Source: Caldisericota bacterium
GTDB lineage: Bacteria; Caldisericota; JANLFM01
NCBI GenBank assembly: GCA_024655965.1
Contig: JANLFL010000002.1
Span: 186,001-250,000, forward strand
Length of the DNA stretch: 64,000 bases
Direction: 5' to 3'
In this document: piece after piece, positions 15,994 to 60,606 of the stretch
How the letters are laid out: the number at the start of each line of letters is the position of its first letter
Numbering within the stretch: position 1 is the first letter of the stretch
Position numbers and translations under genes: made by a program
Notes under the pieces: generated by a model
Told to the model about the DNA's origin: nothing
The model's input: the letters and a program-made list of their open reading frames with translations, nothing else
Databases searched by the model: none

Positions 15994-16434
15994 TTAACCC
16001 AGCCACCAATCTTTCGCCCGGAGACGGGCATCGTAGATCATCCGGGCAACGATGTCCGGGATCTTTCCCACCTCACGCAGGGGATTAACCTCGGAAAAAT
16101 GCACCCAGCGGACCTCGTCAACATCCCCTCCGGGCCTGGGAACACCGGAGACATACCTCGCAAGGTACCCAATCAGGAGGACCTGTTTCTCAAAGGAAGT
16201 TGTGGGGTCAAAGGAAACATAAGCCCCTGTTTGCTGGAGGACTTCCACCTGACAACCCGTCTCCTCGAAGGCTTCCCGACGAACGCAATCCTCCAAGGTC
16301 TCACCCAATTTTAAAGACCCTCCGGGGAGGGTCCACAGGTTTTCCCAGTAACCCTTGTTCTGGCGGACAAGGAGGATCTGCTCCTTTTTTATTATGCAGG
16401 CGTAGCAGGCTACGGTGTACTTTCCTTCCTCCAT
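15994..16434 (-). CDS. NUDIX hydrolase
   Basis: GGSLKLGETLEDCVRREAFEETGCQVE Nudix box. Confidence 0.95.
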   Translation of the reverse strand: MEEGKYTVACYACIIKKEQILLVRQNKGYWENLWTLPGGSLKLGETLEDCVRREAFEETGCQVEVLQQTGAYVSFDPTTSFEKQVLLIGYLARYVSGVPRPGGDVDEVRWVHFSEVNPLREVGKIPDIVARMIYDARLRAKDWWLG

Positions 16435-16503: not shown

Positions 16504-16532
16504 TTGACAATACCGAACAAAAGTTCGATAAT
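16504..16532 (+). promoter_or_regulatory. SOS promoter: TTGACA-N17-GATAAT with embedded LexA box CGAACAAAAGTTCG
   Basis: LexA box at 16514-16527 is a perfect CGAAC-N4-GTTCG inverted repeat located in the promoter spacer. Confidence 0.88.
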
Positions 16533-16553
16533 CTGTCCAAAGGAGGGGAGAAA

Positions 16554-19500
16554 GTGAAGTTTGTTCACCTGCGCGTGCACTCTGACGGGAGCATACTCGA
16601 CTCCACCTTCACCCCGGAGAGGCTCTCCCTTGAGGCTCAGAGGTTGAAAATGGAGGCCATGGCCTTAACCGACAGGGACTCCCTGCTCAGGGGTGTGGAT
16701 TTTTTTCAAACGGCTCCAGGGTACGGGATCCGCCCGATACTCGGTTTAGAGCTTTCCTATTTTCGAGGCCAGCCCTCCCCTACCCCTTACACCATCCTCC
16801 TTCTTGCGGAAAACGAGAGGGGATATAGGAAGCTGATCTCCCTCCTGAATTCCGCGCACCTGAGGCTCAAGGGGAACAGGCCCTCCCCGCGCATCCCTCC
16901 CCTGAGGTCCAGCTCCTCGCTTGAGGCAGAGGATCTTCCCCAGGTGGAACTCGAGGAGGTCTTGAGGGATAACCAGGGGCTCTGCGCCCTGAGCGGGTGG
17001 AAGGGAAGCGAGGCGGGAAACCTCCTGCTTGAGGGAGACGAGGAAGGGGCATCAAGATCGCTCGGGGAATTGAAGGAGGCTTTCGGGGATCGATTGTTCA
17101 TCGAGCTCCAGTGGCACGGAGAGGAAGAGGAAAGGAAGTTGTTGAGAGGGTTGATTCGCTTGAGCGGAAAATTGCAGCTTCCCAAGGTGGCTACGAACGA
17201 CGTGCATTACCTTCAGCCACCGGAGGAGCGCCTCTATCAGATACTGAACTGCATCCGCACCCTCACCCGCCTGGGAGAGACTCATCCGAAGAAAAAGGGC
17301 ACGAGAAACCGCCACCTGCGTTCGGAAAGCGAGATGGAAAGGGCTTTCTCCTTCTGCCAGGAAGCACTCCGCAACACCATCCTTCTTTCGGAGCGGCTTA
17401 ATTTCTCCTTGCCGCCTTACGCTCCACGCCTTCCCCATTCCGGCCGCACGGTGGAGCAGGAAAAAGCCCTCCTGGAGGAACTGTGCCGGAGCAGGCTTCC
17501 TTACTTCTACCATCCGGGGGAAAGAGGCCAGGCGCTCGCCAGGCTGGAATACGAGCTATCCATAATAAAGGAGATGGGCTATGCAGGTTACTTCCTCCTT
17601 GTCCATGACCTGGTGGAGGAAGCGCGGAGGAGGGACATCTACGTCTTCGGAAGGGGGTCTGCGGCTTCCAGCCTAGTATCATACCTCCTGGGGATAACAT
17701 TTGTGGACCCCATAAAGGAAAACCTCCTCTTCGAGCGTTTCCTGAACCCGGCGCGCCTAAACGATCCCCCGGACATCGATCTGGACATCGAAAGAGACAG
17801 GAGGGAGGAACTGATGGACTACGTGCGCCAAAAATACGGCGAGGAGATGGTGGTCCATGTGGGAGGGATGAGCACCTTCCGCCTTCAGGGAGCGCTGCGC
17901 GAGGTGGGAAAGGCACTGGGAAAAACCAAGGAGGAAATAGATTACTTTCAGGAGAGCCTCCCCTTCAGAAAGGTGGAAAGCGGGGAGGCCATGAAATGGC
18001 TGGAGAACGCTAGATCTCTGGAAGGCTTAATCCACCATGTAACCACCCATCCATCGGGCTTCGTGATCACCAGAGGGCCGGCCAGGGAGGAGCTCCCCCT
18101 GATCGTCACGCCGGAGGGGACATGCACCCAGTACGACATGCGAGCCCTGGCTCGCCTGGGCTTCCTCAAGATGGACTTCATCGGCTCCCGCAATCTGAGC
18201 ATAATCCAGGGGACGAGAAAAATGCTTCCCCCGGGGTGGTTGAAGGAGATCCCCCAGGATGACGGGGCAACCTGGGAGATGATCTCCAGGGGAGAGACGC
18301 TGGGATGTTTCCAGCTGGAGAGCTCCGGCATACGCTCCCTTTTAAGGAAATTGAAACCCAAAAACATCAGCGACCTCACCGTGGCCCTATCCCTTTACCG
18401 TCCGGGACCAATTCAAGGAGGAATGGTGGAATCGTACATCCGCCGTCATCACGGAAAGGAGCCCAAGACCTACCTTCATCCCAGCCTGAAGCCGATCCTG
18501 GAGGAAACTCACGGCGTGGTCCTCTATCAGGAGCAAGTGATGAGGATCGCCTGCGAAATAGGGGGGTTTTCCCTGGCAGAAGCGGACATCCTGAGGAGGG
18601 CCATGAGCGATAAGGAGGGAGAGGTGCTGGCATCAATGAGGGAGCGCTTCCTGGAAGGGGCAAAAGAGAGGGGGGTTTCCCATGAGACAGCGAGGAAGAT
18701 ATACGACTTTCTGGAGAAGTTCTCAGGGTACGGCTTCAACAAAGCTCACAGCGCTTCATACGCCATCGTCTCCTACCAGACCGCCTACCTGAAGAGGCAT
18801 TTCCCCAGGGAGTTCTTCAGCGTCCTCCTCTCAACCGAGGAAGGTTATTACCAGCCCTTCGTTTACGCAGAGGAAGCAAGGAGAATGGGAGCGCGGGTCC
18901 TGCCACCAGATCTGAACAGGAGCCAGAAGCACTGCACGGCGGAAAACGAGGGGATTCGCCTGGGGTTCTCCTACATCAAGGACCTCGGTCCAAGCCAGAT
19001 AGAGAGGATAATAGTCAGAAGGCCCCAGGGAGGTTTCAAGAGTTTCGAGGAAGCGATGCGCCTTCTTCACCGGGATCTGGATCGAAAAGCGTTTGAGGCT
19101 TTGATCAAGGCAGGGGGGATGGACTCCTTCGGTTTAACCCGCTCCACGATGCTCGCCAGCCTTCCTTATCACCTGCGGCGCCTCAAGGAAAGGCCGTCCC
19201 TCTTGGAACTCGAGGAGAAGCACCCCGCCTTCTCGCTTCAGTCACCCAGGGAGGATGAAGCCAGGGACTCCTGGGAATTCACCGGGATTTACTCCCCCGC
19301 CCATCCCCTTCGGGTCTACAAAAAGGAGCTCTCCTCTTACCTGACAAACGCCAGCATCAGCATCAGGAACCTTCCCCGGGGAAGCAAGATCAGAGCGGCC
19401 TCCCTCCTGACGCTCGTCAGGCTGGAGAAGACAAGGACCGGAAGAAGGGTGGGCTTTTTGACCCTCGAGGACCTGGATGGGCAATGGGAGGCAATACTCT

Positions 19501-19700
19501 TCCCCGAGGAGCTCGCCCGCTTCGCTCCCCTGCTCAAGGCGCATTCCCTTCTCCTATTAGAGGGGGAGGTAAACGAGAGAGATGGGGAAAAGAGCCTGGC
19601 GGTCACGGACTTAAAATTCCTGAGCCTGAGGAAGGAAGAAAGGCAGTTTTTGAGGGAGAATAATTATTGGGAAGGGACATGGAGGAAGGTTGCCGGATGA
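16554..19700 (+). CDS. dnaE2: DNA polymerase III alpha-like, DnaE2/ImuC-type (error-prone)
   Basis: GTG start 16554 after [72 protein letters not shown], OB fold; 1048 aa. Confidence 0.9.
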   Translation: [1048 protein letters not shown]

Positions 19701-20887
19701 AGAAAAGGAGAATAATTCACGTGGACATGGATGCCTTCTTCGCTTCGGTGGAGGAGTTGGATAACCCGTCCCTTTCGGGCAAGCCGGTGATCGTGGGGGG
19801 ACACCAGACGAAAAGGGGGGTAGTTTCTTCCGCAAATTACCTGGCCCGCTCATACGGGGTGAAAGCAGCAATGCCCTTATGGCAGGCAAAGCAGCTCTGC
19901 CCTGATGGTGTTTTCCTTCCGGTCCGAATGCACAGGTATGCGGAGATCTCCCGCAAATTCCTGGGGATTTTTCTGGATTACACCCCCCTTGTGGAGCCGA
20001 TGGGATTCGACGAGGCCTATCTGGATGTCACCGGCTCCGAGCACCTCTTCGGGGAAGCCCGGGAAATGGGGAGAGAGATACAGAGGAGGGTGAAGGAGGA
20101 AATTGGGCTTTCCTGCTCAGTCGGAATCTCCTACAACAAGTTCCTGGCAAAAATCGCCTCGGGATGGAAAAAACCAGGGGGACTATTCCAAATCCTGGAG
20201 GAGGACGCCCTGGAGTTCTTAAAGGATTTGCCTTTGGAGGAACTCCCGGGGGTGGGCTATGCCACGAGGAAACGCCTGGAGCGAATGGGTTTGAAAAAAG
20301 TGGGGGAACTCTGCCTGGTTCCCTTAGAGATCCTCCAGGCGGAATTCGGGAAGCTCGCCCTGGACATGCTCAATTTCGCAAAAGGGGTCGACCCCAGGCC
20401 AGTTCTTCCGGTATGGGAGAGAAAGTCCCTCGGTGAAGAGGCAACCTTCGAGGAGGATCTCTCCGATCTTGACAAACTTCTGGCTTTTCTCCTGGAAGCC
20501 AGCGACCGACTGGGAAAAACCTTGAGGGAGGAGGGGCGCAAGGCGCGAAGGATCACCTTAAAGGTTCGCTTTCCCAATTTCAAAACCATCACCCGCTCCC
20601 TGACCCTTCCTCATCCCACCGATATCGACGACGAGATTTTTCAGGCTGCTAAATCCCTCCTTTTTAAAAGCCCTCCAAAAAGGGTGAGGCTGCTTGGATT
20701 GCAACTTTCCGGACTGACGCCCTACAGCGAGGGTTTTCTTTTCCCGGATTCCTTAAAACGAAGCGAGGCTTTGCTTCTGGCAATTGACCGCATAAAATTC
20801 AAATACGGGGAGGGAGCGATCTCCAGGGCGGTGGCTCTGAAAAAGGGCAAGGAAGGGAAAAGTCCCCCTCCCAGAAAATCTCCCTGA
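19697..20887 (+). CDS. dinB: Y-family DNA polymerase IV (DinB)
   Basis: HVDMDAFFASVEE, MGFDEAYLDVTG, SVGISYNKFLAKIASGWKKPGG; ATGA overlap with dnaE2. Confidence 0.95.
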   Translation: MKKRRIIHVDMDAFFASVEELDNPSLSGKPVIVGGHQTKRGVVSSANYLARSYGVKAAMPLWQAKQLCPDGVFLPVRMHRYAEISRKFLGIFLDYTPLVEPMGFDEAYLDVTGSEHLFGEAREMGREIQRRVKEEIGLSCSVGISYNKFLAKIASGWKKPGGLFQILEEDALEFLKDLPLEELPGVGYATRKRLERMGLKKVGELCLVPLEILQAEFGKLALDMLNFAKGVDPRPVLPVWERKSLGEEATFEEDLSDLDKLLAFLLEASDRLGKTLREEGRKARRITLKVRFPNFKTITRSLTLPHPTDIDDEIFQAAKSLLFKSPPKRVRLLGLQLSGLTPYSEGFLFPDSLKRSEALLLAIDRIKFKYGEGAISRAVALKKGKEGKSPPPRKSP

Positions 20888-52040: not shown

Positions 52041-52559
52041 TTGAGGATGAGATCGCCCGGGAGAAAAATTTTTATTACCGGGGCGCCCGGGTGCGGAAAA
52101 ACCACCCTGATCAAGGAACTTTTCACCCGGTTTCCGGATTTGTGCGGTTTCTGGACTGAGGAGGTGAGGAAAAGGGGGATTCGAACTGGCTTCCAGATTG
52201 TGACCACCTGGGGAGAAAGGCTCCCCCTATCTTCGGTAAATTCTCCCTCCCCTTTTCGGGTGGGAAAATATGGGGTCGAAGTCCAAAACATAACCAAAGT
52301 TTGCCAAAAAGTCCGGGAATGCCGGAGATCCGGGAAAAAAAGGTTCATCCTGGACGAGATAGGGAAAATGGAATACTTCTCTTCCAATTTTCGCCAGATG
52401 ATTTGGGAAATCTTGGAGGACCCGGAATCGGAAATTTTTGCAACCATTTCCTTAAAGGATTTCCATCCCGAGATCAGAACCATAAAGGAAATGGGCGAGG
52501 TTTTCCATCTGGAAAGAGGAAACTTCGAACAAATTTTGAGGGCACTCTGCGAACAATAA
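52041..52559 (+). CDS. Nucleoside-triphosphatase THEP1-like
   Basis: IFITGAPGCGKTTLIKEL, GFWTEEVRKRGIRTGFQIVT, FILDEIGKMEYFS. Confidence 0.92.
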   Translation: MRMRSPGRKIFITGAPGCGKTTLIKELFTRFPDLCGFWTEEVRKRGIRTGFQIVTTWGERLPLSSVNSPSPFRVGKYGVEVQNITKVCQKVRECRRSGKKRFILDEIGKMEYFSSNFRQMIWEILEDPESEIFATISLKDFHPEIRTIKEMGEVFHLERGNFEQILRALCEQ

Positions 52560-59691: not shown

Positions 59692-60606
59692 CTAAAACAC
59701 CCCAACAAGGAGCTGGAACTCTTTTTCGGGGGGACCGCTTTCCCCCGCTTTCACGTAGATCAACTTCACATCCGTGATTCCGGGGGAAATTGGCGCAAAC
59801 TTGAAGGTGAAAATACCCGGGGCTCCCAAACCTTGAGCATTAGAATCAAACGAGGGTTCTTCCTCTAAGGCAAGGACCTCTCCATCGCAGGACTGGACCT
59901 CCCAGGAATATCCCGCGGAGGGGTTTCCGGGCAGAGAAATTTCCATCTTGTTCAAGGGCATAACCAAATATACTGCGCTTCCGGAATCTTCCTCGGTTAA
60001 GGTGATCTTCTCCTCGGGCTCGATGAGTTTTACTTTCAAAGTGAACTCCTCAATTGGGGGGACGCTCTCCCAGGGTCTCAGATAAATAAACTCCAAAGTC
60101 AGTTCCCCTGATTTCCCCTGAGTGAGGAAGTTAAAGGTAAAATCCCCGCCTGCCCCAACAATATTTGTGGAAGTCTGGGTAGTGTAAGTTGGCTCTCCCA
60201 GAAGTTGAACCAGGCTCTGATCAAAGTCTTTTACTTCCCAGGAGTACCCGGTTGTGGGGTTACCCTCAAGGACAACAGAGAAAACCTGAAAATCACGGGA
60301 AACATAGAGGGTTTTTCCGGAGAAGTCCTTCCCTAATTTTAAGGGATCGGCGATCCGGACTTCATATTTTGCCTGATCCCAGGTGACATTCTTCCCCAAA
60401 GCCTGGGAAATAAAGCGGATGGGGACGAAGGTCCTCCCCTCGAAAACGAATGGTTCCTGGTCGCTGGAAACCGGGACCCCGTTAACAAGGACGGAGATAT
60501 CCCGGTAAGCGACCTCGATCTGACGGTTTCCGGTGCTGGCTTCGACGAAAGCTGTTCCTGCCACCACGGCTAACATCAGAAAAATCACGACGGTCTTCTT
60601 AAACAT
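59692..60606 (-). CDS. Secreted protein: stalk (copper amine oxidase N-term-like) domain plus two chagasin/I42-like inhibitor domains
   Basis: GRTFVPIRFISQALGKNVTWDQ; GNPTTGYSWEV and GNPSAGYSWEV with IYLRPWES / IYVKAGES. Confidence 0.85.
   Translation of the reverse strand: MFKKTVVIFLMLAVVAGTAFVEASTGNRQIEVAYRDISVLVNGVPVSSDQEPFVFEGRTFVPIRFISQALGKNVTWDQAKYEVRIADPLKLGKDFSGKTLYVSRDFQVFSVVLEGNPTTGYSWEVKDFDQSLVQLLGEPTYTTQTSTNIVGAGGDFTFNFLTQGKSGELTLEFIYLRPWESVPPIEEFTLKVKLIEPEEKITLTEEDSGSAVYLVMPLNKMEISLPGNPSAGYSWEVQSCDGEVLALEEEPSFDSNAQGLGAPGIFTFKFAPISPGITDVKLIYVKAGESGPPEKEFQLLVGVF

Follow-up and report, generated by a model that had tools for sequence, protein, structure and literature searches.

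The window, that is, the whole 64-kb stretch of Caldisericota DNA analysed here, carries on its forward strand a pair of polymerase genes preceded by a promoter with a palindrome inside it. The first gene (16554–19700) encodes a second DnaE, DnaE2-like, of 1048 aa with PHP, polymerase core, HhH and OB domains, and the second, dinB (19697–20887), encodes DNA polymerase IV of 396 aa. The start of dinB overlaps the stop of dnaE (ATGA), and the two genes are predicted to be translationally coupled. The same dnaE-dinB pair is also present in a sister species of the same genus (G001) and in two genomes of a second genus of the same family (G002 and G004).

The −35 hexamer TTGACA (16504–16509) and the −10 hexamer GATAAT (16527–16532) are separated by a 17-nt spacer (16510–16526), in which lies the palindrome CGAACAAAAGTTCG (16514–16527), a predicted LexA operator with perfect 5-bp arms and a 4-bp centre. 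The final G of CGAACAAAAGTTCG is also the first base of the −10 hexamer, so 13 of the 14 box bases fall within the spacer. Downstream of the box, AAAGGAGGGG leads to the GTG start at 16554, and the ribosome-binding site AAGGAGGGG is located at 16540–16548. A promoter scan matched 11 of 12 consensus positions with the spacer of 17, while 0.2 promoter-like sites would be expected in shuffles of the same 400-bp stretch. The initial annotation had described TTGACA-N17-GATAAT with a perfect LexA-type palindrome, followed by AAGGAGGGG and GTG, and this layout is exact at 16504–16532. A palindrome of the Gram-positive type, GAAC-N4-GTTC, is found in the core promoter of dnaE, and the perfect form CGAACNNNNGTTCG occurs only once in the 64-kb window, at this promoter.

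The first gene had been named dnaE2, and the name holds in part. The protein ends after the OB domain and has no C-terminal tau-binding domain, a domain universally absent from DnaE2 (PMC3919608), and it keeps the catalytic Asp triad (PDIDLD and the third Asp) and has no internal QxxLF clamp motif. A full-length DnaE1 with both the C-terminal domain and a clamp motif (QATLF) is encoded on another contig (C11). Thus, the domain architecture and the presence of a second DnaE in the genome speak for the name. On the other side, the protein scores 666 bits with the curated DnaE2 model NF004225, below the cut-off of 939 (the Caulobacter control reaches 1392), and scores higher with general DnaE models. 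In a tree built without mis-extracted reference sequences, it stands between the DnaE1 and DnaE2 groups, and grouping with DnaE2 is not rejected (p-AU 0.14). We call it DnaE2-like, its place in the tree being unsettled.

The DinB protein passes the Pol IV model (377 against a cut-off of 256) and keeps the catalytic Asp and Asp-Glu residues (DMDAFF and FDEAYLD), and is consequently not the catalytically dead Y-family protein that would be expected of an ImuB. Near its C-terminus there is a motif resembling the RecA N-terminus, ALLLAIDRIKFKYGEGAISRA, which scores 36 against the RecA of the same genome, the best of 300 shuffles scoring 30. The motif is seen in the DinB proteins of G001, G002 and G004 as well, although their scores of 29, 24 and 34 lie near their own shuffle maxima of 30, 27 and 33. 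PolY proteins with such a motif have been proposed to bind RecA (PMC6511836, PMC12926913), and the window DinB, being active and carrying the motif, has both features of the PolY protein in DnaE2B-PolY-RecA systems. A RecA-model search of the genome returned RecA and one weak match of 25.6 bits only, though a diverged ImuA could escape such a search.

What the operon is for could be read in another way: the second DnaE could serve as a housekeeping polymerase, either a lagging-strand replicase or an accessory one, with LexA control adjusting its dose rather than switching mutagenesis on. This reading concerns the function of the operon and is compatible with the palindrome being a LexA operator. 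The low DnaE2 score, the higher scores with general DnaE models and the unsettled tree position are all in its favour. However, we consider it unlikely, since the genome has a full-length DnaE1 with the C-terminal domain and the QATLF motif, both of which the window DnaE lacks, and since the window DnaE is apparently coupled to DinB in translation. We infer that the pair is mutagenic, as the initial annotation put it.

The promoter arrangement recurs among relatives. In G001 the promoter reads TTGACAATATCGAACTTTTGTTCGATACT; the −35 hexamer (TTGACAATA) and the ribosome-binding site (CAAAGGAG) are kept, and the box, CGAACTTTTGTTCG, retains both arms at the same place although all four centre bases have changed, from AAAA to TTTT. 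For G002 and G004, lexA is divergent from dnaE-dinB and boxes are present in both promoters. Their dnaE promoter, TTGACAAATGTAAACATTAGTTCAATACT, has the layout seen in the window, with the box TAAACATTAGTTCA in the same spacer position, and their lexA gene has TGAACGAACATTCG ahead of its −10 hexamer. In another family of the phylum (f2), RAAC-N4-GTTC was found in 11 of the 11 lexA promoters located (seven exact, four with one mismatch) and also in the dinB promoters of G007 and G012, in each case immediately 5′ of a TATAAT-like −10 hexamer. A different box consensus would have spoken against the initial annotation, but the lexA promoters of the relatives carry RAAC-N4-GTTC in the same place. 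In the fragmented genome G003, no lexA and no box before dnaE were found, which agrees with the LexA reading, though the missing lexA may reflect incomplete assembly.

Some further differences among the relatives could be observed. In the window, the gene divergent from dnaE-dinB encodes a Nudix (MutT-like) hydrolase (15994–16434, reverse strand), in the place that lexA occupies in G002 and G004. In family f4, the lexA promoters (L058–L075) carry a different palindrome, TAGTGTATACACTA followed by TACANNTGTAGTA, and the recognition helix of LexA is changed, which suggests that the operator may have switched within the phylum. Downstream of lexA there come, in order, an unknown small gene and genes for a short DnaE, a RecA-like ATPase and a DUF72 protein. 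In two families, a DUF72-type gene is repeatedly found next to lexA or dnaE cassettes (L111:12616–13476, L115–L119), hinting at a role in DNA damage.

Based on these boxes of the relatives, a Caldisericota motif was built with the genus of the window left out. The training boxes were chosen by motif resemblance, and their fixed position relative to the −10 hexamer was no selection criterion. Under this motif, the window box scores 18.3 bits and ranks first in the 64 kb, the next best match scoring 14.2. Two other matches in the window were not counted, one at 52526 inside an ORF and one at 60600 overlapping a secreted-protein ORF around its start codon.

Then, is a suitable repressor encoded in this genome? 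The absence of LexA would have told against the initial annotation; instead, one LexA was found on contig C42 (L013:982–1566; 214 bits against a cut-off of 111), together with one RecA. The LexA protein is full-length, with both the DNA-binding and the peptidase domains, and it keeps the residues for self-cleavage, i.e., the Ala-Gly site (VRAGEP), the Ser (GDSM) and the Lys (TIKRF). In its own promoter and in that of recA no recognisable box was found, the best motif scores being −1.5 and 2.5 compared with 18.3 for the window box, and the lexA promoter of G001 is also far below the latter. The box is thus not carried by lexA and recA in this genus, while lexA carries it in G002, G004 and f2. 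In this genome, neither lexA nor recA appears to be under LexA control, and lexA of this genus seems to have left the cassette and lost its own box.

The lack of a box before lexA would also fit control of the promoter not by the chromosomal LexA but by another repressor that uses this class of operator, such as one from a phage or from the S24 family. In G019, the promoter of a gene for an S24-peptidase protein carries a box of this kind, and a similar palindrome might in principle be recognised by other wHTH or phage repressors. We regard this as quite improbable, however, for LexA itself is the sole S24 peptidase found in this genome, and in G002 and G004 it is lexA, with a box of its own, that stands divergent beside the operon.

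The palindrome was also counted by pattern searches of the genome, with the reversed pattern as control. The perfect form has 4 sites against 5 for the control, and the form with one mismatch has 38 against 47. There is no enrichment over the control pattern genome-wide; therefore, the palindrome is not significant by itself, which also suggests a small regulon. The three perfect sites elsewhere (C33, C42 and C43) were dismissed, one being in 23S rRNA-like sequence and the others inside two ORFs. What goes beyond chance is the position in the promoter, the conservation in G001 and the match to a motif built without this genus. A chance palindrome within a strong constitutive promoter would agree with these counts and with two of the four perfect sites lying inside ORFs, but it is most improbable given that G001 keeps the arms though the centre has changed, that the box takes the same position in G002/G004 and in the f2 lexA and dinB promoters, and that just 4 of 400 Markov-simulated 64-kb windows reach 18.3 bits anywhere, even before a promoter location is required.

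We put the probability at about 0.88 that the chromosomal LexA uses the 14-bp palindrome as its operator, by which the dnaE-dinB operon would be repressed until DNA damage relieves it. Direct LexA repression, as predicted by the initial annotation, is consistent with the box layout and the presence of LexA and RecA, and is well supported because of the arms kept in G001, the boxes in G002/G004 and f2, and the first rank under the motif. A LexA dimer would sit between the −35 and −10 hexamers, touching the latter, and shut the promoter of the two-gene operon. Once DNA is damaged, LexA would be induced by RecA filaments to cleave itself at the Ala-Gly bond, which would free the promoter, and then both the DnaE2-like polymerase and an active DinB would be made for translesion synthesis. 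The RecA-like tail of DinB suggests a physical partnership with RecA as well, which has been proposed for DnaE2B-PolY-RecA systems. LexA binding, repression, induction, mutagenesis and the partnership with RecA are all predicted here from sequence.

Arrangements of this kind are known, though some details here are unusual. The consensus for LexA of Bacillus subtilis is GAAC-N4-GTTC, as cited in PMC4234289, and the Gram-positive (Bacillus/Clostridium) box has the same arms, spacing and core-promoter place at SOS genes. In contrast, the box described here occurs in Caldisericota, and lexA and recA of this genus do not have it. The LexA-regulated ImuA-ImuB-DnaE2 cassette is likewise an operon with a LexA box that encodes a DnaE without the C-terminal domain and a Y-family protein, and lexA adjoins the operon in the sister genus (G002/G004). 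However, no ImuA-like RecA paralogue was found in our search, and the DnaE falls below the DnaE2 model. Since DinB is catalytically intact and has the RecA-N-terminus-like tail, the operon is not an ImuA-ImuB-DnaE2 cassette. It resembles the DnaE2B-PolY-RecA systems (PMC12926913, PMC6511836), which have the same combination of a DnaE without the C-terminal domain and an active PolY with a RecA-N-terminus-like motif, and where no ImuA or ImuB is found and lexA is often in the operon. The active-PolY group, however, has been described from Bacteroidetes. The literature searched makes no mention of LexA in Caldisericota, and as far as it shows, the arrangement is new for this phylum.

One further promoter-embedded site is common to the window genome and G001, upstream of an ATP-dependent DNA ligase gene (G000:C22:46552, L088:1552–1660; L120 in G001). 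It consists of a TTGACA promoter with the LexA-like box CAAACATTAGTTCG (16.7 bits), and between it and the ligase gene lies a conserved leader that folds into two strong hairpins. The leader matched nothing in Rfam over a gathering score, and may be a small RNA or leader under SOS control. The third candidate (G000:C33:252484, L205:1490–1525) is AAAATAGAACAAATGTTCTATTTT, a palindrome with 11-bp arms located 47 bp before cas1 and just downstream of TATAAA; its LexA core match is 15.6 bits and its outer bases are A/T. A near-box at C33:180996, before a lysine-2,3-aminomutase-like gene, was not counted, as the preceding ORF extends into it. In addition, G001 contains five copies of CTCTTGACAAACATTTGTTCGATAGT-TAAA-TAAGGGGCAGGAAGC (L156–L160, on contigs C13, C34, C35, C39 and C42), each comprising a promoter with a LexA-like box and a structured transcript. 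The copy on C39 precedes DUF1659, DUF2922 and an Amidase_3-SLH gene. This pattern has no match in the window genome, and it resembles a damage-inducible unit that is repeated and may be mobile. An Rfam DUF3800-IX RNA in G001 (L156:396–463) adjoins a DUF3800-like gene.

Tentatively, the SOS response of this genus may have shrunk, with a LexA that controls neither itself nor recA, and with the dnaE-dinB operon, encoding a non-canonical DnaE2-like polymerase and a RecA-tethered DinB, as the main chromosomal target, plus a few odd sites such as the structured leader before the ligase and possibly cas1. The box at the dnaE promoter provides a testable LexA operator for the little-studied phylum Caldisericota, and the comparison with relatives adds evidence that boxes of the Gram-positive type extend past the Gram-positives. 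It also presents a LexA-linked DnaE-DinB pair without ImuA and ImuB. With lexA apparently relocated and devoid of a box, this genus may serve as a natural case in which to ask what purpose LexA autoregulation has.
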